Positions 28,328 through 54,433 of a stretch of DNA of 55,614 bases are shown here, piece by piece. Source of the DNA: Natronomonas salinimetallica (lineage in GTDB: Archaea > Halobacteriota > Halobacteria > Halobacteriales > Haloarculaceae); contig NZ_JACDNQ010000018.1 of the NCBI RefSeq assembly GCF_013839515.1, forward strand, positions 10,736-66,349. The letters are read 5' to 3'. Made by a program: the position numbers and the translations under genes. The notes beneath the pieces are model-generated. The model had not been told where the DNA came from. It saw only the letters and a program-made list of their open reading frames with translations, and did not search any database. How positions within the stretch are numbered: the stretch's first letter is position 1; each line of letters begins with the position of its first letter.

Positions 28328-29961
28328 TCTCCGAGTCGAGATTCGTCGAGTTGGCAGCGGAGGGGCCGGCGGTGATCCGTACCGTCGCCGAGTTGGACAC
28401 CGACGCGGAGCCACTCGGGGCGTACGCCGCCCTGACCGGGCGAACGACCGACGTCGATCCGGCCGGCCACACGTTCCTCTTGGAGAGCGCACAGAAAGTC
28501 GCCTCCAGCGACCCCGACGGTGCGTTCAGAGCCGGTGACGGGGCGGATCGACACGCCCGGTACTCGTTCGTCGGCTACGATCCGGCCGCGGTCGTGACCG
28601 TCGACGGTGACGCCAACGGTTTCGTCGACGTCCTCGACGATCGATACGAGGGACTGTTCGATCTGAACGGCGGTGACACGCTCGCGACGCTCCGGGAGGC
28701 GCTCCCGGACGTGCCGCTTCGGAACTTCCCGGAAACCGAGCGCCAGCGGCTCCAGGGCGGGCTCGTCGGATTTCTTTCCTACGATGCGGTGTACGATCTC
28801 TGGCTCGAAGAGGTCGGACTGGACCGCCCCGACTCCCGCGTGCCGAACGCCCAGTTCGTCCTCACGACGACGACGCTGGTGTTTGACGACGCCGCCGGGA
28901 CGGTCTCGTTGGTATTTACGCCGCTGGTTCGCCCCGACGAGGACGCCGAACGGATCTACGCCGACATCGACGCGGAGCGCGCGCGTATCCAGTCGCTGCT
29001 CGCGGACCACGAGGCGCTCGAAACCGACGGGTTCCGCCCGATCGCAGAGCGCGCCGGGACCAAAGCGACGTACGAGGACGCCGTCCGACGGGCCAAAGAA
29101 CACGTCCTCGACGGCGATATCTACCAGGGCGTCATCTCGCGGACGCGCGAACTGGACGGCGAGATCGACCCGCTGGGACTTTATAAATCCCTTCGGGAGA
29201 TCAATCCCTCGCCGTACATGTACGTCCTCGATTACGACGGCCTCGCGGTGGTCGGAGCCTCGCCCGAGACGCTCGTTTCCGTCCGCGGCCAGGAGGTCAT
29301 GAGCAACCCGATCGCCGGGACGTGCCCACGGGGGACGAGTCCGGTCGAGGACCGGCGTCTGGCCGGGGAGATGCTCGCCGACGGCAAGGAACGTTCCGAG
29401 CACACGATGTTGGTCGATCTCGCCCGTAACGACGTTCGCCGCGTCAGCGAAGCCGGCAGCGTCCGCGTCGAGGAGTTCATGAACGTTCTGAAATACAGCC
29501 ACGTCCAGCACATCGAATCGACGGTGACCGGCGTCCTCGACGACGACTGTGACGCCTTCGACGCGACGCGTGCGTCGTTCCCGGCCGGGACGCTGTCGGG
29601 CGCGCCGAAGATCCGCGCGATGGAGATCATCGACGAACTCGAAGAGCGCCCGCGCGGCGTCTACGGCGGCGGCGTCGGCTACTACTCCTGGAGCGGCGAC
29701 GCCGACTTCGCGATCGTCATCCGGACCGCGACGGTCGAACGGGGCGGGGGTACCGAGGGGTCCGACCGGGTAACCGTCCAGGCCGGTGCCGGGATCGTCG
29801 CCGATTCCGACCCCGAGGCCGAATACGACGAGACCGAACAGAAGATGGACGGGGTCATCGATGCCCTGCGCGATATCGAACTCGGAGCCGAGCGTGAGGC
29901 CGGCGTCGAATCCGGGACCGAACGGCCCGAAGACGGGACCGACACGACGGAGGCCCCATGA
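28324..29961 (+). CDS. trpE: Anthranilate synthase component I
   Basis: This 545-aa enzyme converts chorismate and ammonia to anthranilate. The chorismate-binding core is clear: NPIAGTCPRGTSPVEDRRLA, ERSEHTMLVDLARNDVRRVS, KYSHVQHIESTVTG and FPAGTLSGAPKIRAMEIIDE, plus a final GAGIVADSDPEAEY. GTG 28324 overlaps the trpF stop; an upstream open frame is a shadow. The N-terminal region holds the usual feedback site area (LLESA). The last 40 residues are an acidic extension. Confidence 0.96.
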   Translation: MISESRFVELAAEGPAVIRTVAELDTDAEPLGAYAALTGRTTDVDPAGHTFLLESAQKVASSDPDGAFRAGDGADRHARYSFVGYDPAAVVTVDGDANGFVDVLDDRYEGLFDLNGGDTLATLREALPDVPLRNFPETERQRLQGGLVGFLSYDAVYDLWLEEVGLDRPDSRVPNAQFVLTTTTLVFDDAAGTVSLVFTPLVRPDEDAERIYADIDAERARIQSLLADHEALETDGFRPIAERAGTKATYEDAVRRAKEHVLDGDIYQGVISRTRELDGEIDPLGLYKSLREINPSPYMYVLDYDGLAVVGASPETLVSVRGQEVMSNPIAGTCPRGTSPVEDRRLAGEMLADGKERSEHTMLVDLARNDVRRVSEAGSVRVEEFMNVLKYSHVQHIESTVTGVLDDDCDAFDATRASFPAGTLSGAPKIRAMEIIDELEERPRGVYGGGVGYYSWSGDADFAIVIRTATVERGGGTEGSDRVTVQAGAGIVADSDPEAEYDETEQKMDGVIDALRDIELGAEREAGVESGTERPEDGTDTTEAP

Positions 29962-30545
29962 CGACGAACGTACTCTTCGTCGACAACTTCGATTCGTTCA
30001 CCTACAACCTCGTCGAGTACGTCAGCCAACACGGCGACACCGAGGTCGATGTGTTCCGAAACACCGCCGACCTGGAGACGATCCGCGCCGCCGCCCCCGA
30101 CGCGATCGTCATCTCCCCGGGCCCCGGCCATCCCAAAAACGACCGCGACGTGGGTGTAACGATGGACGTACTCCGGGACGTCAGTCCCGAGACACCGACA
30201 CTCGGCGTCTGTCTCGGCCTCGAGGCGGCCGTCTACGAGTACGGCGGGACAGTCGACCGAGCCCCGGAACCCATACACGGCAAGGCGTTCCCGGTCGACC
30301 ACGACGGAAAGGGCGTCTACCGGGGCCTCGAACAGGGGTTTCAGGGGGGACGATACCACTCCCTCGTCGCGCTCGACGTCCCCGACTGTTTCGAGGTGAC
30401 CGCGACGACGGACCACGACGGCGTCGAGTTGGTGATGGGGGTCCGCCACCGCGAGTACCCGATCGAATGTGTCCAGTTCCACCCCGAATCGGTCCTCACC
30501 GCCGTCGGACACGATGTCGTCGAGAACTTTCTTCGATCGGTCTGA
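29958..30545 (+). CDS. trpG: Anthranilate synthase component II (glutamine amidotransferase)
   Basis: This 195-aa class-I amidotransferase supplies ammonia to TrpE. Motifs are FVDNFDSFTYNLVEY, SPGPGHPKN, the nucleophile Cys in GVCLGLEA and the HPE pair in QFHPESV. The usual H-Q after LG in the nucleophile elbow is L-E here, a small departure. ATGA overlap with trpE. trpC, trpB and trpA are not in the window. Confidence 0.95.
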   Translation: MTTNVLFVDNFDSFTYNLVEYVSQHGDTEVDVFRNTADLETIRAAAPDAIVISPGPGHPKNDRDVGVTMDVLRDVSPETPTLGVCLGLEAAVYEYGGTVDRAPEPIHGKAFPVDHDGKGVYRGLEQGFQGGRYHSLVALDVPDCFEVTATTDHDGVELVMGVRHREYPIECVQFHPESVLTAVGHDVVENFLRSV

Positions 30546-30598: not shown

Positions 30599-30752
30599 CT
30601 ATAGTAGACATCGCAACTATGTAGACATCGCAACTATGTAGACATCGCAACTATGTAGACATCGCAACTATGTAGACATCGCAACTATGTAGACATCGAT
30701 CGCACTGCCGCCGTGCGATCGAGTGTGTATTGTCTTCCGATCTCTACTATAG
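30599..30752. repeat. MITE-like repeat with terminal inverted repeats and 17-bp tandem units
   Basis: The element is bounded by CTATAGTAGACATCG (30599-30613) and, inverted, CGATCTCTACTATAG (30738-30752). Inside are five perfect tandem copies of the 17-bp unit GTAGACATCGCAACTAT (30604-30688) plus a partial sixth, then a stem-loop (CGATCGCAC ... GTGCGATCG, 7-base loop). The right 65 bases recur inverted at 49118-49182 with four differences. No coding capacity is seen. Confidence 0.75.
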
Positions 30753-31263: not shown

Positions 31264-31338
31264 ATGACCCACACAGCATACGTTGACCGCAGCGAAAAGA
31301 CGAAAATACGAGCCGTACCGGCCCGGAGGGCCGAGTGA
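31264..31338 (+). CDS. Short leader ORF overlapping the nrdJ start
   Basis: A 24-codon frame (begins MTHTAYVDRSEKTK) ends with a TGA whose last base is the first base of the nrdJ ATG (TGATG). This arrangement would couple nrdJ translation to the leader. The peptide is basic and has no domain. It may be a regulatory leader, or simply chance in an otherwise gene-free stretch. Confidence 0.3.
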   Translation: MTHTAYVDRSEKTKIRAVPARRAE

Positions 31339-34300
31339 TGTCCGGGGCAGACCCGTCCGCGGACGAACTCACTCTCCCGATCAAACGAACGACGGGTGAG
31401 ACCATGGCGGACCGACTCACGGGAAACGCCTATCACAACATCCTCCCCGCCCGGTATCTGCGGAAGGACGCCGACGGCGAACCCATCGAACAACAGGAGG
31501 AACTCTTCGAGCGTGTCGCCCGGAACGTCGCGCTGGCCGAGGCGGTCTTCGAGGCCGGGCGACGGGGCGTCGACATCACCGTCACGCCGGACCAACTCAA
31601 GCCGGACCACCCCCGGCGTGACGCACTCGCCGCCGAGGTCTTCGGAGCGGGCGTCACGACCGACGCCGACGCGGAGACGACGCTTTCGGTATACAACGTC
31701 AACAAGTTCGCCTACGAGACGCTCGTACCGGAACTCCCCGAGGCGATCCGGTCACACGTCGAGGAGACCGCCGACGCCTTCCGCGAACAGATGGAACGGC
31801 TCTCGTTTATGCCGAACTCGCCGACGCTCATGAACGCCGGCGACGAACTCCAACAGCTCTCGGCGTGTTTCGTCGATTCGCCCGAGGACGACATCGACGA
31901 CATCCACCAGACCGCCAAAGAGGCCGCGGAGGTGTTCCAGTGTCTCACGGCCGAAACGTCCGTCCACGTCGAACAAAAAGGCGTCACCTCGATCGCCGAC
32001 GTCGAGCCGGGCGACGAGATCGTCCAGCGCGACGGGGGCGACCACCGGTCGCGGCGTGTCGAGGAAATCCACGCCTACGACGACGCGCCGACGATGACGA
32101 TCACGACCGAGGGGGGGATCGACGTTCGCGGGACGCCGAACCACCGCCTTCTCGTCGACGGCGACTGGAAACGGCTGGACGAGATTCGGGCGGGCGATAC
32201 CGTTTCGGTCCGTCTCGGGTGGCTCCCCGAGGAGGCGGGCGCGGTCGAGCTCGAACCCGTCGAAGCAGGCCCACAGTGGGCCGCGGAACGGACTGTCTCG
32301 AACGAGTCCGTCGTCGAGCTTCACGCACAGGGACTCTGCGATTACGCGATCGCCGACCGGCTCGATTCGTCGCCGTCGACGATCCAGCGCCGCCGGGCCG
32401 ACGAACTCGACCTGCCGGCCAACGGGTCCGGCGGACGCGACGGCGGGCCGACGTTCGACGAAGAGCGGTTCCGCGAACTACACGCGGACGGCCACACGGA
32501 TTCCGAGATCGCCGACGCCCTCGGCGTCCACAGTACGACGGTCCGGAACGCGCGGATGGCCCAGTCGCTGTCGGCGAGCGGCCAGGCCGTAAAGTCCGTC
32601 TCACAGCCGGAGACGTTGAGCACGGATCTCGCCGAGCTCCTCGGCCTCTGGATCGGTGACGGGTCGGTTCACGAGGACGGAATCCGCTTCCACGTCTCCC
32701 GCGAGGAGACGCTCGAACACGTCGACCGTCTGGCGCGCCGAAGTTTCGATACGGGTGCCGATTGGACGTGGGCCGACGGGTGCTACGAGGTCGTCATCTA
32801 CAGCCACGAGATCAAACGGTTTTGGCTGCGGAACTTCGGCGACGCGAAGCCGTCCTCGAGTGAGGCGACGGTCCCGGAACCGGTTCTCGGTTCGGACCGC
32901 GATCGCGTGTACGCGTTCCTTCGTGGACTGTTTTCCGCCGACGGAACGCTCTCACAGAACCGGTATCCGCGGCTGTACAGCGCCTCCGAGGAACTCGTCG
33001 ACGGCGTCCATCAGCTCCTTCTCGGCGTCGGTATCCCGTCGACGATCTGGGCGTGGGATGACGACGAGCGCGACTACTACAGCGTCGCTCCGACCGACGA
33101 ACGCGGCCTCTCCGAGTTCGCCTCCCACGTCGGTTTCGTCGACGACCGTTCTGAGACGATGACCGCCTCCATCGCCGACGCCGAGTTGGAGCCGACGACG
33201 TGTGGGACGGTCCGCGACGCCGAGTGGACACAGGAAATCGTCGCCATCGAGGAGAGCGATCCGGCGACGGTGTACGACGTCACAGTCGAGGGGAACCACG
33301 AGTACGTCGCGAACTCGGTCGTCTCGCACAACAGCGGGGGCGGGATGGGGTATGCCTTCTGGCGACTCCGCCCCTACGGCGACGCTGTCGGCTCGACCGG
33401 CGGGATCGCGTCGGGGCCGATCACGTTCATGCGGACGTACGACCAGATGTGCGAGACGATCGCTCAGGGCGGCGCCCGTCGCGGCGCACAGATGGGCGTC
33501 ATGCGCATCTCACACCCCGACGTCATCCAGTTCATCCACGCGAAGAACAAGGACGTCTCCCTGGCCGAGACGCTCCGTCTGAACGACCCGGACGACTTCA
33601 CCCACAACTCCTTCGAGGAGGCCCTAGCGGAGGCCCGCGAACTCATCGACGACGAGGGGAAGGTCCCCGAGCACCTCCGGAACGCGGTCGAGGGCCACCT
33701 CTCGAATTTCAACATCTCCGTCGGCGTCACCGACGGGTTCATGGAGGCGCTGAAAGCCGGCGAGGAGTACACGTTCACCAACCCCCGGACGGGCGAACCA
33801 CACGTCGCAACGCCCGAGACGAAGGAGCTCTACGACATGTTCGGCCTCGGCGAGCACGTCGACGTCGGCGAGACGCTGTCGGTCCCCGCCGAGAAGCTCT
33901 GGGAGCACGTCCTCGAGGGAGCCCACGAGAACGGCGAACCCGGCGTCGTCTACCTCGAACGGATCAACAAAGAACACTCCTTCGACGTGGAGGAACATCC
34001 GGACCACCGAATTTTGGCGACCAATCCCTGCTTGACAGGTGATATGGAGGTACAGTTGTCCGATGGGACGACACGGCAGATCGGCGAATTGGCCGACGAG
34101 GAGTGCCGTATCACGGTTCGTACCCTCGATGATGGCGGCGTTACCTCCAGTCCGGCAACTGCATTTAAAACAAAAAAAGACGCCGACGTTGTTCGGATCG
34201 AGACCGAATCCGGTCCTACTATCCGCACGACCCCGGATCACAAGATTAGGTCGGCAGACGGGACTTGGGTCAAGGCTCAAGATCTCGATACTGGTGACGA

Positions 34301-36305
34301 CATTGTCGGACTCTCACAACTGCGGGCGACACCGCAGGGGCCGGTTCAAGAAACGGCGACCGAGACCGTCGTAGAGGTCGGGTTTGATGGGACCGAGGAC
34401 GTGTACGACATGAGAGTCGAGGGGACGCACAACTTTTTCGCAAGCGAATCTGGCAAAAAAGGTATCAATGTTCATAACTGTGGTGAGCAACCGTTGGAAG
34501 AATACGAGGCCTGCAACCTCGGCCACATCAACCTCTCGACGCTTGCGGACCTCGACGCGCCGGACTGGCGGGTCTGGTACGACGACCACGGCGAGGCGTA
34601 CGCCGACCTCGAGGCCGCCGTCGACGCCTTCCTCGAGGAGGCGCTCGACTTCGAGGCGTTCGACGAGCGCATCGAACTCGGCACGCGCTTTCTCGAGAAC
34701 GTCGTCACGATGTCGGACTTCCCGGTGCCGGAGATCGAACAGAAGGTCAGAGAGATGCGGAAGATCGGCCTCGGCGTGATGGGGCTGGCGCAGTTGTACA
34801 TCCAACTCGGCATCGAGTACGGCTCCGAGGAGGGCAACGAGGTGGCCCGCCAGATGATGCGCCACATCAACCACGGCTCGAAGTGGGCCTCCCACGAACT
34901 CGCCGAGGAGCGCGGCGTCTTCGAGGAGTGGGACAACTCGAAGTACGCCGATCCCACCGAGTACCGCGAGTGGTTCGAGAAACAGACCGGTCTCGACGCC
35001 GACGAGTGGGAAGACGGGTTCGCGATACGGAACCACAACACGACCACAATCGCCCCGACCGGGACGACCTCGATGATCGGCAACACGACCGGCGGCTGTG
35101 AGCCCATCTACAACGTCGCCTACTACAAGAACGTCTCCGACGACGTTCAGGGCGACGAGATGCTCGTCGAGTTCGACGACTACTTCCTCCGCGCCCTGGA
35201 GGAGAACGGCCTCGACGTCGAGGCCGTCAAACAGGAGGCCCAAGAGCAGATGGCCGCGAACGAGTTCGACGGTATCGACGGGCTCTCGACGGTCCCCGAC
35301 GCGATCGGCGAGCTGTTCGTGACAACGGGCGCTCTCTCGGCGAAGGAACACGCCGGCGTCCAAGTCGCCTGTCAGGAGGGTGTCGACTCGGCGATCTCGA
35401 AGACGGTCAATGCGCCGAACGACTCGACGATCGAGGACGCAAAGGAGGTCTTCGAGTACATTTACGACCACGGCGGCAAGGGCGTTACCTACTACCGCGA
35501 CGGGACCCGATCGAAGCAGGTACTCACGACGCGGGCGAAAAACACGGAGTTCGCCGACGAGGCGGAGGCCGCCGAGGCCATCGTCGAGGACATCGAGGAG
35601 ATCTTCGGCGGCATCGAAGGGTTCCTCGACAGCGAGGAGGTCGCGGCGGTCCTCGACGGGGACGTCCGCGAGTTGCTCGACGTCTCGCCTCCCGAACTCG
35701 GGACGAAGCAGGCCCGCCCCGACGTGCTCCACGGCGTCACCCAACGAATCGACACCGGCTACGGAAAGCTTTACGTCAACATCAACGAGAACCCCGAGAA
35801 CGGCCGTCCGTTCGAGCTGTTCGCGAACATCGGCAATTCGGGCGGGTTCACCGCCTCCTTCACCGAGGCGCTCGCGAAGACGATCTCGACGGCGCTTCGA
35901 TCGGGCGTCGATCCCCGGGAGATCGCCGACGAACTCCAGGGCATCCGCTCGCCGAAGGTCGCCTGGGACAAAGGCGAACAGATCAACTCGATCCCGGACG
36001 CGATCGGGACGGCGATGCGCCGATACCTCGACGGCGAGGTCGACAAGGCGTACCCCCAACAACAGAGCCTCTCTGAGATCGCCGAGGAGGAGACGGAGCA
36101 GTCCGCGGTCCCCCCGGAGACCGACGGCGGCGCAGTCTCGGACTCGGGCATCGGATCGCCGGCATCGCCGAACGACGACACCGACGCCGCACGGTCGCTC
36201 ATCGACGCGGGCGAATCCCCGGAGTGTCCCGAGTGCGGAAGCATGACGCTGTATTACTCCGAGGGCTGTAAGACGTGCGAGAGCTGCGGCTGGTCGGAGT
36301 GTTGA
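31338..36305 (+). CDS. nrdJ: Adenosylcobalamin-dependent (class II) ribonucleotide reductase with two inteins
   Basis: The 1655-codon gene gives a mature enzyme of about 1041 aa after removal of two inteins (codons 202-665 and 898-1047). Extein sequence includes MPNSPTLMNAG, the insertion site EVFQ/SGGGMGYAFWRLRP, the active-site block NP/CGEQPLEEYEACNLG with the catalytic Cys directly after intein 2, and NTTTIAPTGTTSMIGNTTGG. A C-terminal zinc-ribbon-like CPECGSM...CKTCESCGW carries the redox cysteines. It reduces ribonucleotides for DNA synthesis using B12. ATG 31338 is favoured by the family-typical LPIKRTTGET opening, with GGAGGG about eight bases upstream. Confidence 0.95.
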   Translation: MSGADPSADELTLPIKRTTGETMADRLTGNAYHNILPARYLRKDADGEPIEQQEELFERVARNVALAEAVFEAGRRGVDITVTPDQLKPDHPRRDALAAEVFGAGVTTDADAETTLSVYNVNKFAYETLVPELPEAIRSHVEETADAFREQMERLSFMPNSPTLMNAGDELQQLSACFVDSPEDDIDDIHQTAKEAAEVFQCLTAETSVHVEQKGVTSIADVEPGDEIVQRDGGDHRSRRVEEIHAYDDAPTMTITTEGGIDVRGTPNHRLLVDGDWKRLDEIRAGDTVSVRLGWLPEEAGAVELEPVEAGPQWAAERTVSNESVVELHAQGLCDYAIADRLDSSPSTIQRRRADELDLPANGSGGRDGGPTFDEERFRELHADGHTDSEIADALGVHSTTVRNARMAQSLSASGQAVKSVSQPETLSTDLAELLGLWIGDGSVHEDGIRFHVSREETLEHVDRLARRSFDTGADWTWADGCYEVVIYSHEIKRFWLRNFGDAKPSSSEATVPEPVLGSDRDRVYAFLRGLFSADGTLSQNRYPRLYSASEELVDGVHQLLLGVGIPSTIWAWDDDERDYYSVAPTDERGLSEFASHVGFVDDRSETMTASIADAELEPTTCGTVRDAEWTQEIVAIEESDPATVYDVTVEGNHEYVANSVVSHNSGGGMGYAFWRLRPYGDAVGSTGGIASGPITFMRTYDQMCETIAQGGARRGAQMGVMRISHPDVIQFIHAKNKDVSLAETLRLNDPDDFTHNSFEEALAEARELIDDEGKVPEHLRNAVEGHLSNFNISVGVTDGFMEALKAGEEYTFTNPRTGEPHVATPETKELYDMFGLGEHVDVGETLSVPAEKLWEHVLEGAHENGEPGVVYLERINKEHSFDVEEHPDHRILATNPCLTGDMEVQLSDGTTRQIGELADEECRITVRTLDDGGVTSSPATAFKTKKDADVVRIETESGPTIRTTPDHKIRSADGTWVKAQDLDTGDDIVGLSQLRATPQGPVQETATETVVEVGFDGTEDVYDMRVEGTHNFFASESGKKGINVHNCGEQPLEEYEACNLGHINLSTLADLDAPDWRVWYDDHGEAYADLEAAVDAFLEEALDFEAFDERIELGTRFLENVVTMSDFPVPEIEQKVREMRKIGLGVMGLAQLYIQLGIEYGSEEGNEVARQMMRHINHGSKWASHELAEERGVFEEWDNSKYADPTEYREWFEKQTGLDADEWEDGFAIRNHNTTTIAPTGTTSMIGNTTGGCEPIYNVAYYKNVSDDVQGDEMLVEFDDYFLRALEENGLDVEAVKQEAQEQMAANEFDGIDGLSTVPDAIGELFVTTGALSAKEHAGVQVACQEGVDSAISKTVNAPNDSTIEDAKEVFEYIYDHGGKGVTYYRDGTRSKQVLTTRAKNTEFADEAEAAEAIVEDIEEIFGGIEGFLDSEEVAAVLDGDVRELLDVSPPELGTKQARPDVLHGVTQRIDTGYGKLYVNINENPENGRPFELFANIGNSGGFTASFTEALAKTISTALRSGVDPREIADELQGIRSPKVAWDKGEQINSIPDAIGTAMRRYLDGEVDKAYPQQQSLSEIAEEETEQSAVPPETDGGAVSDSGIGSPASPNDDTDAARSLIDAGESPECPECGSMTLYYSEGCKTCESCGWSEC
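31941..33332 (+). other. NrdJ intein 1 (464 aa, LAGLIDADG homing endonuclease, HTH insert)
   Basis: It starts at Cys202 (CLTAETSVHVEQKG) and ends VVSHN before Ser666. Splicing blocks A (TAETSV), B (TEGGIDVRGTPNHRLL) and the C-terminal HEYVANSVVSHN are intact. The homing endonuclease has both LAGLIDADG-like motifs (LLGLWIGDGSV and LRGLFSADGTL). Unusually, two HTH units (nucleotides about 32301-32415 and 32455-32571) lie between the splicing and endonuclease parts. Base composition matches the host. Confidence 0.93.
34029..34478 (+). other. NrdJ intein 2 (150-aa mini-intein)
   Basis: It starts at Cys898 (CLTGDMEVQLSDG), ends KGINVHN and is followed by the catalytic-site Cys of the extein (CGEQPLEEYEACN). 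Block B (IRTTPDHKIRSADG) and block F (DVYDMRVEGTHNFFASE) are present; no endonuclease is present. Its bases are clearly richer in A/T (with A-runs such as those near 34168) than the flanking gene. It looks like a recent arrival that has lost or never had its homing nuclease. Confidence 0.93.
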
Positions 36306-43608: not shown

Positions 43609-43887
43609 ATGTCAGGTACGATGAGCGCAACCGAACTCGATGGGGAGTCCCCTGCCCCCGGCTGGGACGCCGTTACTGACCTTCCGCCGAGCGCCAAACT
43701 GGTCGCAAAGGTACTCGAGTACAACGATCGGCTTACACAGAGCCAACTGGCAGCCGAAACGATGCTGCCGTCCCGAACGGTCCGATACGCGATCACCCGG
43801 CTCGAGGAAGTCGACGTAGTCGAGTCACGCTTTTCGTTCACCGACGCCCGAAAGCGCGTGTACGCACTCAGTATCGGCCAGGAGTGA
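43609..43887 (+). CDS. MarR/TrmB-like winged-helix regulator
   Basis: This 92-aa protein has a winged helix with recognition helix SRTVRYAITRLEEVDVVESR at about 54-73 and a short wing (DARKRVYAL). GAGG directly precedes ATG 43609, and an AT-rich TATA-like patch lies about 25 bp upstream. It is divergent from pan. The last codons and the stop lie inside a 38-bp tandem repeat. It may regulate pan or the downstream mre11-rad50 genes. Confidence 0.8.
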   Translation: MSGTMSATELDGESPAPGWDAVTDLPPSAKLVAKVLEYNDRLTQSQLAAETMLPSRTVRYAITRLEEVDVVESRFSFTDARKRVYALSIGQE

Positions 43888-43951
43888 CTGTCCGGACCAG
43901 GGGTGCCCGTCCAAGCCAGGAGTGACTGTCCGGACCAGGGGTGCCCGTCCA
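43877..43951. repeat. 38-bp tandem duplication over the HTH gene stop codon
   Basis: The sequence from 43877 to 43914 is repeated from 43915 to 43951 with no difference over 37 bases. The first copy contains the TGA of the preceding gene and the second repeats it downstream. This looks like a recent slippage or unequal-recombination event; each copy also holds short GTCCGGAC and GGGGTGCCC palindromes. Confidence 0.85.
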
Positions 43952-48243: not shown

Positions 48244-48648
48244 TGCGGTAAGTCCCCGGCCCGCGAGTTCAGTCGTCGCGTAGCCCCGTTCGCCGCCGGT
48301 GTCGGCCTCGCGGACGAGCCCCGCCGCCCGAAGCTCCCCGATCCGTCCGTGGAGATCGGACTCACAGAGATCGTACCGTCCGAGAATGTCACGGACCGAA
48401 AGCGGCCCGCGGTCCTCCAACTCGACCAGGAGTCCCAGCATCCGTTCGGAGTGGACAGCAGTGAGTATCCGACGCTGTGGCTCGGGAACGGCTCCCGCGG
48501 CGACGGCTAGCGGCGAGTCGCCGGTCACGTCCAACTCGTCGTTCGGGAGATAGCGCTCGTCGCCGGTTTCGGGATCCCGCACGAGACTCGAATCGCCGGA
48601 CCGTTTCACGAGGAGATAGCGGTCGCCGTGGTGCTCTACGGTTCTCAT
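48235..48648 (-). CDS. Winged-helix regulator convergent with rad50
   Basis: In this 137-aa protein the first 50 residues form a beta-rich unit (HHGDRYLLVKRSGDSSLVRD), and the rest is a winged helix (RILTAVHSERMLGLLVELED ... SDLHGRIGELRAAGLV ... GERGYATTELAGRG). Its place next to rad50 seems conserved in haloarchaea as I recall. Its start overlaps the stop of the membrane-protein gene upstream (ATGA), so the two are one operon. Confidence 0.75.
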   Translation of the reverse strand: MRTVEHHGDRYLLVKRSGDSSLVRDPETGDERYLPNDELDVTGDSPLAVAAGAVPEPQRRILTAVHSERMLGLLVELEDRGPLSVRDILGRYDLCESDLHGRIGELRAAGLVREADTGGERGYATTELAGRGLTALR

Positions 48649-49079
48649 CGAGTGCCCCCGTCGGCCGAACGGCCGTTTCCGCCGGCCTCGTCCCCGGCTT
48701 CGCCCGTTCGGTCTTCGCTTTTTTCCCCGCTTCCCGTGGGGCTATCGTCGGCGTATTGGCCGGTCTTGAACCGCCAGTAGTACCGCGCCGTCGCCAGCGC
48801 GGCGACGGCTCCGATGAACAGCGCGGGGCCGCCGCCCGCGTAGTTGCCGCGGAAGTAAACGAGCATCGCTCCGATCGAGAGGGCCGCCAGTGCGACGTTC
48901 AACAGGAGGACGGACGCCCAAAAGGCACGGAAAAGGTCCTCGGAGACGTCTTCGGTCGCCCCCAGTGATTCACGGAGCGTCCGTGTCGAATCGGGCGGAT
49001 CGGGGCCGAGACTGTCGGGCTCGAACTCGTCGGGCTCGTCCGGCCACGCTTCCTCCTCCTCCTCTTCGATCGGGTTCAC
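48645..49079 (-). CDS. Two-helix membrane protein with acidic N-terminus
   Basis: In this 144-aa protein a Glu/Asp/Pro-rich soluble N-terminus (about 1-50) is followed by helices at about 56-78 (LFRAFWASVLLLNVALAALS) and 84-103 (ALFIGAVAALATARYYW), then a hydrophilic Gly-rich tail. GTG 49079 (VNPIEEEEEE) is chosen over the open extension to 49106. Function unknown; tight coupling to the winged-helix gene. Confidence 0.68.
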   Translation of the reverse strand: MNPIEEEEEEAWPDEPDEFEPDSLGPDPPDSTRTLRESLGATEDVSEDLFRAFWASVLLLNVALAALSIGAMLVYFRGNYAGGGPALFIGAVAALATARYYWRFKTGQYADDSPTGSGEKSEDRTGEAGDEAGGNGRSADGGTR

Positions 49080-49117
49080 GGTCGGAGCGACGGCCCCCGG
49101 GAGCAAAAATCACGCGA

Positions 49118-49202
49118 CTATAGTAGAGATCGGAAGACAAGACACACTCGACCGCACGGCTGCAGTGCGATCGATGTGTACACCGTTCCGATGTCAATAT
49201 AG
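49118..49202. repeat. Second, inverted copy of the MITE-like repeat
   Basis: CTATAGTAGAGATCG (49118-49132) opens the element and the degenerate inverted end CGATGTCAATATAG (49189-49202) closes it. 49118-49182 equals the reverse complement of 30688-30752 at 61 of 65 positions. The internal stem (CGACCGCAC/GTGCGATCG) has one mismatch. This copy lacks the 17-bp tandem array. It lies between polB and its divergent neighbour. Confidence 0.75.
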
Positions 49203-49333: not shown

Positions 49334-52300
49334 ATGGAGCAGGGAACCCTCGGGGAGTTCGCCAGTCCGGAAGCCGCAAGCGGCGATCGTCCGAAAGCGG
49401 AGGCCGCCGCCATCGCCGGGGGCGACGACAGCGGCAGCGGCGAGGTCACGGTCGTCGAACTCTCAGAGCAGGCGTTCCCCGATGCGGACGGCCACGTCGA
49501 ATTCGCCGTCACGCAGGTAAACTATACCATCGAAGGCCGTGGCGACGACGAGCACGCCGTGTTGCACGTCTTCGGTCGGGTTCCCACCGACGACGAGAAC
49601 GAGGCCGATCGCGTCGCACACGCCCGCGTCCACGGCTTCCGTCCGTATTTTTATACCCCGCTCTCGGATCTCGATCTCGCCGCCGAGGCGGAGGCCCCGC
49701 TCACCGAGGCCGACGTCGTCGATTCGCGGCTCGACCACGACCGGCTGACCGGGGTCGAAACCCACGGCGACCGGACGGCGGCGGGCACCGACGTCGGCGA
49801 TCACGCCGACGCGGAACTGGTCGTCTACGAATCGATTCGGGGTGAATCCCTGGTCAAAGTATTCGGCCAGACGCCACGCGACGTGGGGCAGCTACGCGAC
49901 CGGTTCGACCACTACGAGGCCGACATCCTGTTTCCGAACCGATTACTCATCGACAAGGACGTCACCAGCGGCGTCCGGGTACCGACCCGGCGACTCGACG
50001 ACGGGAGCCTGAAGATCCACCACACCGAAATCGAACCGGTCGACGTGGAGGCCGAAAGCCGCGTACACACGCTGGATATCGAGGTCGAAGACCGGCACGG
50101 GTTCCCGGAGGACGGCGAACAGCCGATCATTTCGTTGACCGCCCACGACTCCTATCGCGACGAGTACGTCATCTGGCTCTACGAGGACTCGGATGGCGCT
50201 GCCGCACCCGACGCCGTGCCGGGCTACGATCCCATCGGCGAGAGCGCCCTCGACGTCGGCGTTCGAGCCTTCGCCGAGGAGGCGGAGATGCTCGTCGACT
50301 ACCTGGAGTACCTCGAGGAGACCGACGCCGATTACCTGACTGGCTGGAACTTCGACGACTTCGACGCGCCGTATCTCATCGACCGGATCGACCGCCTCTC
50401 TGGCCGACACGACCGGCTGGATTCGGATCGGCTCTCGCGGATAGACGAGGTCTGGGACTCCGGGTGGGGCGGTCCGAACATCAAAGGACGGGTCGTCTTC
50501 GATCTCCTCTATGCCTACCAGCGGACGCAGTTCTCCGAACTCGACTCCTACCGGCTCGATGCCGTCGGCGAGGAGGAGTTAGGCATCGGCAAGGAGCGCT
50601 ATCCGGGCGACATCGGGGACCTGTGGGGCGACGACCCCGAACGGCTGCTCGAGTACAACCTCCGGGACGTCGAACTGTGCGTCGAGTTGGACCGCAAACA
50701 GGAGATCATCCCCTTCTGGGAGGAGGTCGCCTCCTTCGTCGGCTGCAAACTGGAGGACGCGACGACCCCCGGTGACGCGGTCGACATGTACGTCCTCCAC
50801 GAGATCCACGGCGAGTTCGCGCTGCCGTCGAAGGGCCACCAGGAGAGCGAGGAGTACGAGGGCGGGGCCGTCTTCGACCCGATCTCGGGGGTCAAAGAGA
50901 TGGTAAGTGTACTCGATTTGAAGTGCTTCAGCGGCGATACCGACGTGGCGACGCCGGACGGGGTGCGAAACATCGAGGACGTCGAGGTCGGCGATCCGGT
51001 GTACACGCTGAACCCGGAGACGTTCGAGTGCGAAATAAAGCCGGTCATCGACACGCAGTCGTATCAAAACCGGTACGGGGAGCTACACCACGTGGCCGGA
51101 AACACGCACGATCTCAAAGTGACGGAAAACCACCAGTTTCTGCTCTCGAAGACGCGGGGATGGGACGGCCTCGATTCCTCGGAGTACGAGTTCGACGCGT
51201 ACCGGGATATCCCCGACGCGGAGCGGTTTGCGTTCCCGAACCACGAGCCGATGTCAGGAGCGACTCGCGAACGATTCAGCCCCGTGGACGACCTCGACGA
51301 CGGGCACGTCGTCGTCTACGCACACGAAGGGCTGACCTCGTTCCGTGCTGCGATGCCCGAGGGTATCGAATCGGAGCTCGATTGGGCGAACGGGACTTCG
51401 AAGCTAGCAGCGACGGAAGACAAGTGTGGGAAGTATCTGATACCGATAGATGTCTACCTCGACCACCGCTCGACGATCGAAGACGAAGCCGACGAGGTCT
51501 TGTTGAAATACGATCGAGGCCACGCCGAAATGCCGACAGCGTTCGACATGGACGACTGGCTCGAACTAGTCGGCTGGTTCGTCACCGAGGGAAGCTTCAT
51601 CAGGGAATCACCCGGAATCGTGTTGCACCAACAGGATGCGGACGGACGCGAGTCGATCCGTGCACTGTTAGAGCGGATGGACGTACAGTACAACGCCAAA
51701 ACCAACCGTTTCAACGTCTCGAATCGTCACCTGCACGATTGGTTTATAAATCACTGCGGCGATGGATACGCCGAAAAACACCTCCCCGAGTGGGTGTTCG
51801 GGCTTGATTCGAGTCATCTGCGTGTGCTTTTGGAGACGCTTATCGACGGCGACGGAAGCCGTACCGAAAGCGGGCTCCGGAAGTTCTGGACGAAGAGCGA
51901 CCGACTGAAGGAGGACATCGTTCGGCTCGCAGTCCGATGCGGCGAGAAGCCGACCGTCTCGAAACAGTCGGACGGAACGTGGTATGTCTCGATCGGGAAA
52001 CGAGGGTCGATGAAGAAGGCGAACGCGTCAGTCGAGGAACACGACGGACGGGTTCACTGTCTCACCGCGAAGGACAACCACGTCGTCCTCGCGGGGCGTA
52101 ACGGTCGCTTCCAGTGGGTCGGACAGTCGCTCTATCCGATGTGCATGGTGACTGTTAACGCATCTCCCGAGACAAAAGTCGATCCCGACGCCTACGGCGG
52201 CGAGACCTACGTCGCGCCCAACGGGACGCACTTTCGGAAGGAGCCCGACGGGATGATTCGGGAGATGGTCGACGAGCTGCTCGAAGAGCGCGAACAAAAA

Positions 52301-54433
52301 AAGTCACTACGGAACGAAAACGCTCCCGGCACCGACGCCTACGAGACCTACGACCGACAGCAGGCGGCCGTCAAGGTGATCATGAACTGTTTCACCCCGG
52401 ACACCGACGTGTTGACGCCGGGCGGCGTCCGTGGAATCCGGGAGCTATCGGTCGGCGACGAGGTGTACTCGCTGGACCCCGAAACGATGGAGATGGAGAT
52501 CAAGCCGGTCGTCGAGACCCACGAGTACCCCGACTACCGCGGCGAGTTGGTCGACATCGAGACGAGCAAGATCGACTTCAGCGTGACCCCGAACCACCGG
52601 ATGCTCGTCAGGAAGAACGACAAAAACGGGATTACTGAGGACGGGTGGGACTTCGTCGAGGCGGGAGAACTGTATGACTATTGCCATTATGAGCTGCCTC
52701 ATGGGTGGACGTTTGATCACGAAGATAGCCTCCCCAACTTCGTCGATATTACCGAAATGCTCGAAGAATACACCGACGTCCAGTATACTGTTACGGACGG
52801 AAGTGGGAAAGTTGCCGCTAAATATGGAGTACCGAACGTACAACGTCGGGTTCCTGTGAACGATTTTCTCGAACTATTGGCCTGGTATATAACTGAAGGC
52901 AACGTCTATGAAGCAAAGACGGGAAATCACCGAGTGAAAATAGCACAGGAACCGTCCGAAGAACGAGCGGATATAGAGGACCTGGTTGACCCGATAGCCG
53001 ACTACTATTATGTTAACGAACAGAGTGTGAGCTTCTCGAGTCGTCCAATCGGAACACTACTGGAGGAGTTGTGTGGACGTGGTAGCGGAAACAAACGGAT
53101 ACCGGAATTGGTATTTGAAGGATCGAGGGAACAAAAAGAGCTGTTTCTCGAGATACTTATCGCGGGTGACGGGGACGGACAGACGAACTCTTGGAGATAC
53201 AGTACCACAAGCGAGCAACTCAGAGACGATGTGTTACGATTATGTACACACCTCGGACTGACAGCCACATATAATTCCGATAGCACAGACAGCGATGTCT
53301 GGCGGATCTACTGCACTGAAGATGGGGAAAATTCGTTCAGGATGTACCGCGACGGCTCACAGCGTACCGCAGAAAACGGTGTGTATTGTGTCACAGTTCA
53401 AGACAATAATACACTCATCGCTGGTCGAAATGGGAAGATGCATAACGTGTCAAACTCCTTATATGGAGTTCTTGGGTGGGACCGATTCCGGCTGTACGAC
53501 GAGGAAATGGGCGCTGCAGTGACTGCGACTGGACGGGACGTGATCGAGTTCACCGAGGGTGCTGCGAACGAAATTGATAAAGAAGTTATATACGGAGATA
53601 CGGACTCCATCATGTTAGATCTCGGACACGATGTCGACAAGGACGAAGCCATAGAGCAGTCCTTCGAGATCGAGTCCCACATCAACGACGCCTACGACGA
53701 GTTCGCAGAGCGGTTGAACGCCACCACACACCGCTTTGAGATCGAGTTCGAGAAGCTCTACCGGCGGTTCTTCCAGGCGGGCAAGAAAAAGCGCTACGCC
53801 GGTCACATAATCTGGAGCGAGGGAAAGGACGTCGACGACATCGACATCACGGGCTTCGAGTACAAGCGCTCGGACATCGCGCCGATCACGAAGGAGGTGC
53901 AAAAGGAGGTCCTCGAGATGATCGTCACGGGTACCGAGCGCGAGGAGATCAAATCCTACGTCGGCGACGTCATAGAGCGCGTACAGGCGGGCGAGGTGAG
54001 CCTCGATGAGATCGGGATCCCGGGTGGCATCGGAAAGAAACTCGACAACTACGAGACGGACACCGCCCAGGTCCGAGGGGCGAAGTACGCGAACCTCCTC
54101 TTCGGGACGAACTTCTCGAGCGGCTCGAAGCCCAAGCGACTCTACATCGAAAAGGTCCACCCGTCGTTCTTCAGGGAGGTCGAAGCCGAAAAGGACCTCG
54201 ACCCGTCGGTCGACCAACTGTACGGGGAGTTCAAACGCGAAGCCGAGAGCGGCGAGACGGTCATCTGCTTCGAGTTCGAAGACCAGGTACCCGACGCGTT
54301 CAACGTCGATTACGAGAAGATGCTCGATAAGACGCTCAAGGGCCCGATCGCTCGGATCCTCGAGGCGCTCGATATCTCCTGGGACGAGGTCGAGAGCGGA
54401 CAAGAGCAGACGGGACTCGGGAGCTTCATGTAA
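49334..54433 (+). CDS. polB: B-family DNA polymerase with two inteins
   Basis: The 1699-codon gene has exteins of about 942 aa. The 3'-5' exonuclease has Exo I HTLDIEVED, Exo II GWNFDDFDAPYL and Exo III-like YNLRDVELC. Polymerase motif A (LDLK/SLYPMC) is split by intein A, motif B (KVIMN/SLYGVLGW) by intein B, and motif C YGDTDSIMLD is uninterrupted. It is the replicative or repair polymerase of haloarchaea. A TATA box (TTTTTATCG, 49301-49309) 27 bp upstream implies a leaderless start at 49334. Sequence shortly after intein B is unusually A/T-rich. Confidence 0.96.
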   Translation: MEQGTLGEFASPEAASGDRPKAEAAAIAGGDDSGSGEVTVVELSEQAFPDADGHVEFAVTQVNYTIEGRGDDEHAVLHVFGRVPTDDENEADRVAHARVHGFRPYFYTPLSDLDLAAEAEAPLTEADVVDSRLDHDRLTGVETHGDRTAAGTDVGDHADAELVVYESIRGESLVKVFGQTPRDVGQLRDRFDHYEADILFPNRLLIDKDVTSGVRVPTRRLDDGSLKIHHTEIEPVDVEAESRVHTLDIEVEDRHGFPEDGEQPIISLTAHDSYRDEYVIWLYEDSDGAAAPDAVPGYDPIGESALDVGVRAFAEEAEMLVDYLEYLEETDADYLTGWNFDDFDAPYLIDRIDRLSGRHDRLDSDRLSRIDEVWDSGWGGPNIKGRVVFDLLYAYQRTQFSELDSYRLDAVGEEELGIGKERYPGDIGDLWGDDPERLLEYNLRDVELCVELDRKQEIIPFWEEVASFVGCKLEDATTPGDAVDMYVLHEIHGEFALPSKGHQESEEYEGGAVFDPISGVKEMVSVLDLKCFSGDTDVATPDGVRNIEDVEVGDPVYTLNPETFECEIKPVIDTQSYQNRYGELHHVAGNTHDLKVTENHQFLLSKTRGWDGLDSSEYEFDAYRDIPDAERFAFPNHEPMSGATRERFSPVDDLDDGHVVVYAHEGLTSFRAAMPEGIESELDWANGTSKLAATEDKCGKYLIPIDVYLDHRSTIEDEADEVLLKYDRGHAEMPTAFDMDDWLELVGWFVTEGSFIRESPGIVLHQQDADGRESIRALLERMDVQYNAKTNRFNVSNRHLHDWFINHCGDGYAEKHLPEWVFGLDSSHLRVLLETLIDGDGSRTESGLRKFWTKSDRLKEDIVRLAVRCGEKPTVSKQSDGTWYVSIGKRGSMKKANASVEEHDGRVHCLTAKDNHVVLAGRNGRFQWVGQSLYPMCMVTVNASPETKVDPDAYGGETYVAPNGTHFRKEPDGMIREMVDELLEEREQKKSLRNENAPGTDAYETYDRQQAAVKVIMNCFTPDTDVLTPGGVRGIRELSVGDEVYSLDPETMEMEIKPVVETHEYPDYRGELVDIETSKIDFSVTPNHRMLVRKNDKNGITEDGWDFVEAGELYDYCHYELPHGWTFDHEDSLPNFVDITEMLEEYTDVQYTVTDGSGKVAAKYGVPNVQRRVPVNDFLELLAWYITEGNVYEAKTGNHRVKIAQEPSEERADIEDLVDPIADYYYVNEQSVSFSSRPIGTLLEELCGRGSGNKRIPELVFEGSREQKELFLEILIAGDGDGQTNSWRYSTTSEQLRDDVLRLCTHLGLTATYNSDSTDSDVWRIYCTEDGENSFRMYRDGSQRTAENGVYCVTVQDNNTLIAGRNGKMHNVSNSLYGVLGWDRFRLYDEEMGAAVTATGRDVIEFTEGAANEIDKEVIYGDTDSIMLDLGHDVDKDEAIEQSFEIESHINDAYDEFAERLNATTHRFEIEFEKLYRRFFQAGKKKRYAGHIIWSEGKDVDDIDITGFEYKRSDIAPITKEVQKEVLEMIVTGTEREEIKSYVGDVIERVQAGEVSLDEIGIPGGIGKKLDNYETDTAQVRGAKYANLLFGTNFSSGSKPKRLYIEKVHPSFFREVEAEKDLDPSVDQLYGEFKREAESGETVICFEFEDQVPDAFNVDYEKMLDKTLKGPIARILEALDISWDEVESGQEQTGLGSFM
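50924..52126 (+). other. PolB intein A (401 aa, motif A, pol-a site; ends in Gln)
   Basis: It starts with Cys531 (CFSGDTDVATPDGVRN) and ends FQWVGQ before Ser932 of SLYPMC. The endonuclease motifs are LVGWFVTEGSF and LLETLIDGDGSR. Block B (GNTHDLKVTENHQFLL) is intact. The last residues are G-Q rather than H-N, so splicing must use a C-terminal Gln, a documented but uncommon variant. The gene is otherwise open through this region, so the intein is presumably active. Confidence 0.9.
52388..53455 (+). other. PolB intein B (356 aa, motif B, pol-b site; mosaic composition)
   Basis: It starts with Cys1019 (CFTPDTDVLTPGGVRG) and ends KMHNVSN before Ser1375 of SLYGVLGW. The endonuclease motifs are LLAWYITEGNV and FLEILIAGDGDG. 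The first about 280 bases match host GC, whereas from about 52665 to the end the sequence is A/T-rich with unlike codon use. This suggests the endonuclease and C-terminal part came from a different source. Confidence 0.92.

Follow-up and report, generated by a model that had tools for sequence, protein, structure and literature searches.

An 86-bp near-palindromic haloarchaeal MITE with IS630-like ends and, in some copies, a tandem array of its own left end

Described small repeats and the two copies in the window

The closest described systems come from both bacteria and archaea. RUP of Streptococcus pneumoniae is a non-coding MITE of about 107 bp that occurs in many copies, has ends like those of IS630-Spn1, and shows a target duplication (PMC3049150). 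In Porphyromonas gingivalis, BrickBuilt is a minisatellite with a 23-bp unit that lies within an intergenic MITE with small inverted ends (PMC4596501). Among haloarchaea, the SMRs of Haloquadratum walsbyi are multicopy repeats of 80-110 bp with prominent inverted ends and no transposase (PMC3119063), and the MITE ISH2 of Halobacterium is 531 bp long, related to ISH8, and associated with a 10-bp duplication (PMC10264941).

We analyzed a 55,614-nt stretch of the Natronomonas salinimetallica genome (the window), which contains two copies of a short repeat (Table 1). The initial annotation, made from the letters of the window, described copy 1 as inverted ends enclosing five perfect 17-bp repeats and a stem-loop, and this description was exact: the ends (30599-30616 and 30735-30752) are 18-nt imperfect inverted repeats with 89% complementarity, GTAGACATCGCAACTAT recurs perfectly at 30604, 30621, 30638, 30655, and 30672, and the arms of the stem-loop (30696-30708 and 30710-30722) are 92% complementary. 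Read in the CTATG register, the array has four full units starting at 30617; TRF gave a period of 17, 5.9 copies, 98% matches, and a score of 193. The second copy noted by the annotation was likewise found at 49118-49202, inverted relative to copy 1, identical to it at 61 of 65 bases, and lacking the array. The 65-bp core used in that comparison is a real sequence match but is part of something larger, an 86-bp near-palindrome that ends in the inverted repeats.

Both copies are intergenic. Copy 1 starts 53 bp past the stop of the 195-aa ORF and copy 2 lies between divergent genes. By eye, genes adjoining both copies (31335-36305 and 49334-54433) look intein-containing, and elsewhere in the window, at 43877-43951, there is a perfect two-copy 38-bp tandem repeat with a sub-period of 19 bp.

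Table 1. Element copies, their parts, and neighboring ORFs (positions within the window)
Feature	Position	Strand	Remarks
Copy 1 including array	30599..30752	+	154 bp; sequence analysis
Copy 1, element proper	30602-30749	+	TA at 30600-30601 and 30750-30751 taken as target duplication; boundaries inferred from empty sites of other copies
Left terminal repeat	30599..30616	+	CTATAGTAGACATCGCAA; also the first (18-bp) array unit
Right terminal repeat	30735..30752	-	CTATAGTAGAGATCGGAA, read from outside in
17-bp tandem array	30604..30698	+	GTAGACATCGCAACTAT x5, then partial unit GTAGACATCG
Apical stem-loop	30696..30722	none	Center of the element's palindrome; pairing conserved across haloarchaea
Copy 2	49118..49202	-	85 bp; no array; single hairpin; fold z -3.9 as DNA
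ORF upstream of copy 1	29958..30545	+	195 aa; reads by eye as anthranilate synthase component II
ORF downstream of copy 1	31335..36305	+	1656 aa; reads by eye as intein-containing B12-dependent ribonucleotide reductase
ORF beside copy 2	49334..54433	+	1699 aa; reads by eye as intein-containing family B DNA polymerase
ORF on the other side of copy 2	48645-49106	-	

Copies, target sites, and related insertion sequences

The genome-wide search suggested by the initial annotation yielded about 60 copies of the 86-bp near-palindromic element in the host genome, whole or partial and with duplicates removed, rather than two. The right-end 18-bp pattern TTCCGATCTCTACTATAG, with up to three mismatches allowed, matched 106 times in the genome vs 0 for a reversed-pattern control, and the palindromic core matched 69 times per strand (controls, 0 and 1). 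Full-length host copies (44) had a mean identity of 93.5% to the consensus CTATAGTAGACATCGCAACTATGTACACATCGATCGCACTGCCGCCGTGCGATCGAGTGTGTATTGTCTTCCGATCTCTACTATAG, and a second subfamily (...AACAATTGAAGCGATTTACACACCG...) is represented by two copies in the same genome. Counting as family members 86-bp elements at about 75-100% identity to either subfamily consensus, we found relatives in 141 of 391 haloarchaeal genomes and 36 of 86 genera, with numerous candidate loci in many of these genomes. They also occur on plasmids of Haloarcula, Halomicrobium, Natrialba, Natrinema, and others, and on annotated haloarchaeal plasmids nearly all matches fell where no feature is listed. One closed genome (G003) carries many MITE ends paired 86 bp apart and one insertion sequence (IS) with related ends. 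The phage records searched held no element, and the viral contigs searched for the exact core held none. The annotation had named an outcome that would have pointed to a simple duplication, namely just two copies and no IS sharing the terminal inverted repeat (TIR); instead there were about 60 copies and an IS with related ends, and the copy number together with the empty sites described below rules out segmental duplication.

The element inserts at TA and duplicates it. This is the target-site duplication that the annotation had proposed looking for, and it was read from two reconstructed empty sites, at both of which the filled and empty forms differ by the element and one TA. For the copy at L081 the empty site is TTCAAGCTATTCGCG, and the uninterrupted form, ATTTCAAGCTATTCGCGCGACGGTGACGCGATAGC, is present in L077 (35 of 35 nt); for the copy at L006, element-free homologous sites occur in other genomes, one of which (L101) aligns without gaps at 82% over 96 nt. 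L101 comes from G008, a genome of the host's genus, and shares 3,414 identical bases with a Natronomonas aquatica contig (L211), in keeping with a Natronomonas host. Between copies the outer bases vary, with TATAG...CTATA constant. The MITE is preceded by C at 38 of 50 ends and followed by G at 36 of 53. At about 70 ends of the IS630 elements considered next, C precedes in 58 and G follows in 57, a C-TA-G target preference common to IS and MITE. IS and MITE insertions nested inside element copies show the TA duplication too.

A search with DDE_3 (PF13358) identified IS630-family loci in two genomes (G003 and G008) that are flanked by TATAGTA...TACTATA and whose relatives carry annotations of the ISNpe3 and ISNamo16 type. 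From 80 loci collected by protein similarity and four others, we assembled 73 IS630-family copies with TATAGTA ends; their modal length was 1,059 bp and their end consensuses were TATAGTAACCGTTAGAACTTTCTGCTCAG (left) and TATAGTAGACATTAGAAATAATTGCTCAC (right). When the comparison was limited to positions 8-30, beyond TATAGTA, the right ends of five MITE subfamilies fit the IS right-end profile (random p from <0.00005 to 0.0011) and fit the IS left-end profile less well. Identities between MITE ends and the corresponding IS ends were 17-23 of 30, with the Halomicrobium type at 23. Neither a pattern search of five relatives nor the set of 80 IS630 loci yielded an IS whose termini are exactly those of the MITE; the host genome, a 30-contig draft, contained no DDE_3 (IS630) transposase, and the sole IS with TATAGTA ends in G003 has related ends, not the MITE's own. 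A degenerate IS630 in another genome (L122 in G013) was considered as the parent for its right end, GTATAGTAACCATCAGAAGTAATTACCCAC, which is close to the G003 MITE left end, but was rejected as a pseudogene whose other end was not found; this locus may be what is left of the true parent.

The TIR-sharing IS that the initial annotation proposed looking for exists in the form of IS630-family members with related ends, none of them identical. Its failure to match the repeat to any named family holds for the element itself in the open-access papers searched, but the IS relative does have names. In comparisons that used one genome per species, the roughly 60 copies, the TA duplication, and the related IS ends support its reading of the repeat as MITE-like, mobile, and non-coding. 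The MITE and this IS630 group agree in target duplication and target preference, and the ends of both are related and similarly asymmetric; on these grounds the element is most likely moved in trans by an ISNpe3/ISNamo16-like IS630 transposase or by a close, perhaps lost, sister.

Several variants were observed along with the ordinary copies. In L077 (G000:C23:234703-234867), two nearly identical elements stand head to tail with one CTATAG in common, and a solitary left-end unit, CTATAGTAGACATCGCAACTATAG, with no element attached, lies at 737-761 of L080. Extra DNA occurs at the hairpin tip in L218, L219 (Natronococcus sp. CG52), and L220 (Natrialba magadii); in L220 it includes a tandem of longer units, a site of growth that differs from the left-end array. 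The host genome also carries a second non-coding repeat family of 108 bp (TACTGACGGACAAAAGAATG...TTTCGTCCACCAGTA; MITE2) with apparent 3-bp TNA duplications. Its copies (L071, L014, L015, L031, L033, L079, L080, L088, L090, and L222) are mostly 97-100% identical, and several are inserted into or beside the 86-bp MITE. We initially read MITE2 as a TA-targeting IS630 relative and dropped this reading on the 3-bp TNA duplications seen in its flanks.

Origin of the array and conservation of the hairpin

The array is built of units of the left end of the element itself, bearing out the view of the initial annotation that the array is TIR-derived with units containing most of the terminal repeat. 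In ordinary host copies, the left-end repeats GTAGACATCG and GTACACATCG are identical at 9 of 10 positions at +17, as compared with 4 of 10 in the other subfamily. Five of the approximately 60 host copies are expanded: two carry 17-bp arrays with different hybrid units, the window copy (CTATGTAGACATCGCAA) and C26 (CTATGTACACATCGCAA), and 18-bp arrays occur at three places (C23, C25, and C5). Because the expanded copies carry different units, the expansions appear to be independent events. Outside the host, the 18-bp tandem pattern is rare among the 391 haloarchaeal genomes, and those occurrences that we read were one IS nested in a copy, one nested MITE, and one two-unit tandem; the 17-bp pattern was seen only in the host among 26 genomes searched. 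Judged from these sequences, the 17-bp hybrid units and the rarity of such tandems outside the host make slippage the likeliest cause of the array, and some of the 18-bp arrays may have started from a nested insertion that later collapsed.

Taken as a whole, we favor with good confidence an 86-bp non-coding, near-palindromic MITE that inserts at TA, is mobilized in trans by IS630, and has had its left end expanded by slippage or exchange in some copies. The element, 86 bp with its CTATAG ends counted, inserts at TA, preferably within C-TA-G, and duplicates the TA, as the empty sites show; most likely an ISNpe3/ISNamo16-like IS630 transposase or a close, perhaps lost, sister would cut and paste it in trans. 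In the ordinary host element the left end is already repeated imperfectly in direct orientation, CTATAGTAGACATCGCAA preceding CTATGTACACATCG, and strand slippage or unequal exchange between the left end and this internal repeat could generate array units: a slip or exchange within GTA or ACATCG would give 17-bp units and one within CTAT 18-bp units. These are the lengths seen in the arrays, the window copy being a 17-bp case. Weighing against this account are an IS end identity of just 17-23 of 30, the absence of an IS with exact termini from those searched, the lack of a DDE_3 gene in the draft host genome, and a constancy of the hairpin, described next, that goes beyond the needs of a passive MITE.

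The hairpin itself is strikingly constant. A set of 57 elements from many genera aligns over 86 columns with almost no indels, and 95.6% of pair cells are paired. At 11 of the 31 pairs both sides have changed (70 cells vs 18.7 in shuffles), a value that no shuffle reached in a test that relatedness inflates, and five of these double-changed pairs belong to the inner helix, further in than most of the IS-like end sequence. When the partner was shifted by one column, pairing fell to 21-24%, and the RNA fold z was -7.8. Mismatches are conserved as well: the two ends are also kept different. A search of Rfam returned no family above threshold. These patterns leave selection for hairpin structure as a possibility, with template switching perhaps explaining part of the agreement between arms.

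How the array began admits a second answer, possible but distinctly less probable, in which nested transposition gave rise to it: insertion of a MITE or IS at the internal C-TA-G/T site, which lies exactly 18 bp from the terminal TA, would come first, recombination between inner and outer direct repeats would leave one extra left end, and repetition and slippage would add units. In Natrialba magadii, ISNamo16 interrupts an element copy at the TA that lies 18 bp in from the terminal one, and excising the IS with one TA restores an 85-bp element; an IS630 occupies the same internal TA in Natrarchaeobius chitinivorans, a whole MITE in the same orientation does so in L229, and MITE2 does so in the host genome (L071). 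A collapsed two-unit product is present in Natrialba (L230), and the two units of the array copy L005 are different alleles, which nested insertion explains better than slippage does. However, nested transposition predicts 18-bp units starting CTATAG, and the hybrid units of the window and C26 arrays are 17 bp long (CTATG...) and call for slippage or exchange; nor was a full MITE-in-MITE nest seen in the host genome. It is very improbable that the array is a functional iteron, a CRISPR-like or regulatory array, or a simple segmental duplication. Regular 17-bp units between two genes would suit such a reading, but the roughly 60 dispersed copies have TA duplications and mostly no array, and an iteron or CRISPR reading was rejected since the units are spacerless and are fragments of the transposon's end.

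What keeps and moves the hairpin can also be read differently. The 86-nt hairpin may spread as a MITE and yet be retained for a host role as RNA or DNA cruciform, at a transcript end, processing site, or protein-binding site, a reading that we consider rather unlikely. The near-absence of indels over 86 columns, the compensatory pairs reaching into the inner helix, and the fold score speak for it; against it, quasi-palindrome template switching can make arms agree without selection, relatedness among the sequences inflates the shuffle test, no Rfam family reaches its threshold, and high copy number with absence from sister species suits a parasite. Equally doubtful in our estimate is the broader proposal that the hairpin is a mobile structural element across haloarchaea, retained for its role in folded single-strand transposition or in RNA or nucleoid function, and not a passive IS deletion derivative, although the fixed length and compensatory pairing throughout the class exceed what a passive MITE needs. 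Movement by an unknown non-IS630 enzyme, as for the Haloquadratum SMRs, or by a single-strand enzyme of the IS200/IS605 type working on the palindrome, is improbable. The size and prominent inverted ends do resemble SMRs (PMC3119063), no exact IS parent was found, and the host assembly has no IS630 gene; the TA duplication and IS630-like ends are nevertheless unlike SMRs, and IS605-type elements lack the terminal inverted repeats present here. IS605-derived PATEs are likewise defined by near-terminal palindromes without terminal inverted repeats or target duplication, whereas this element has both inverted repeats and a TA duplication. What is surprising about the element is that, throughout an archaeal class, its 86-nt hairpin stays the same length while compensatory changes preserve its pairing.

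Comparison with known systems

If the IS630-mobilized MITE reading is correct, annotation has missed a class-wide family of tiny transposons, and haloarchaea have a counterpart of pneumococcal RUP with a testable enzyme, the IS630 transposase. The array would be a natural case of a transposon end becoming a minisatellite, in which an internal copy of the end, lying in registers of 17 and 18 bp, also serves as a site for insertion. With its covarying hairpin, the family also lets one ask if prokaryotic MITEs are kept by transposition alone or also by structure.

The element has the features expected of a MITE: it is short and non-coding (86 bp in ordinary copies, 154 bp in the window copy), has terminal inverted repeats and a TA duplication, occurs in multiple dispersed copies, and has ends related to an autonomous transposon (IS630 profile, 17-23 of 30 identities). 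As for derivation from IS630, the TA duplication, C-TA-G preference, and TATAGTA ends were all found, and an autonomous IS with the same ends in the same genome was not. ISNpe3 and ISNamo16 (IS630, Tc1/mariner, haloarchaea) resemble it in their TATAGTA ends, in end sequence that is left- or right-specific to about position 30, and in TA duplication and C-TA-G preference; they differ in being 1,059-bp ISs with a DDE transposase and without the 86-bp palindromic core, and their ends depart from those of the MITE at 7-13 of the first 30 positions.

Like RUP, the element is a non-coding multicopy MITE with IS630-like terminal repeats and a target duplication; unlike it, RUP is bacterial, AT-rich, and, as described, confined to pneumococcus and presented with no TIR-derived array (PMC3049150), and the likeness is one of kind. 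In BrickBuilt the array makes up the body of the element (PMC4596501), whereas here about 5 copies in 60 have one, and it is built from units of the terminal repeat. SMRs, as described, make no target duplication, and their ends have no relatives among transposons (PMC3119063), in contrast to the TA duplication and IS630-like ends of this element. ISH2, too, is a haloarchaeal MITE, and an IS with related ends moves it in trans, but it is 531 bp long, ISH8-related, and has a 10-bp duplication (PMC10264941), as opposed to 86 bp, IS630-like ends, and TA. The open-access papers, searched for the terminal sequences and for haloarchaeal MITEs, with ISfinder outside this search, gave no description of the family. 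Together, these comparisons place the element as an apparently undescribed MITE family of a known kind, with an array that is well accounted for and an unusual hairpin that is class-wide.
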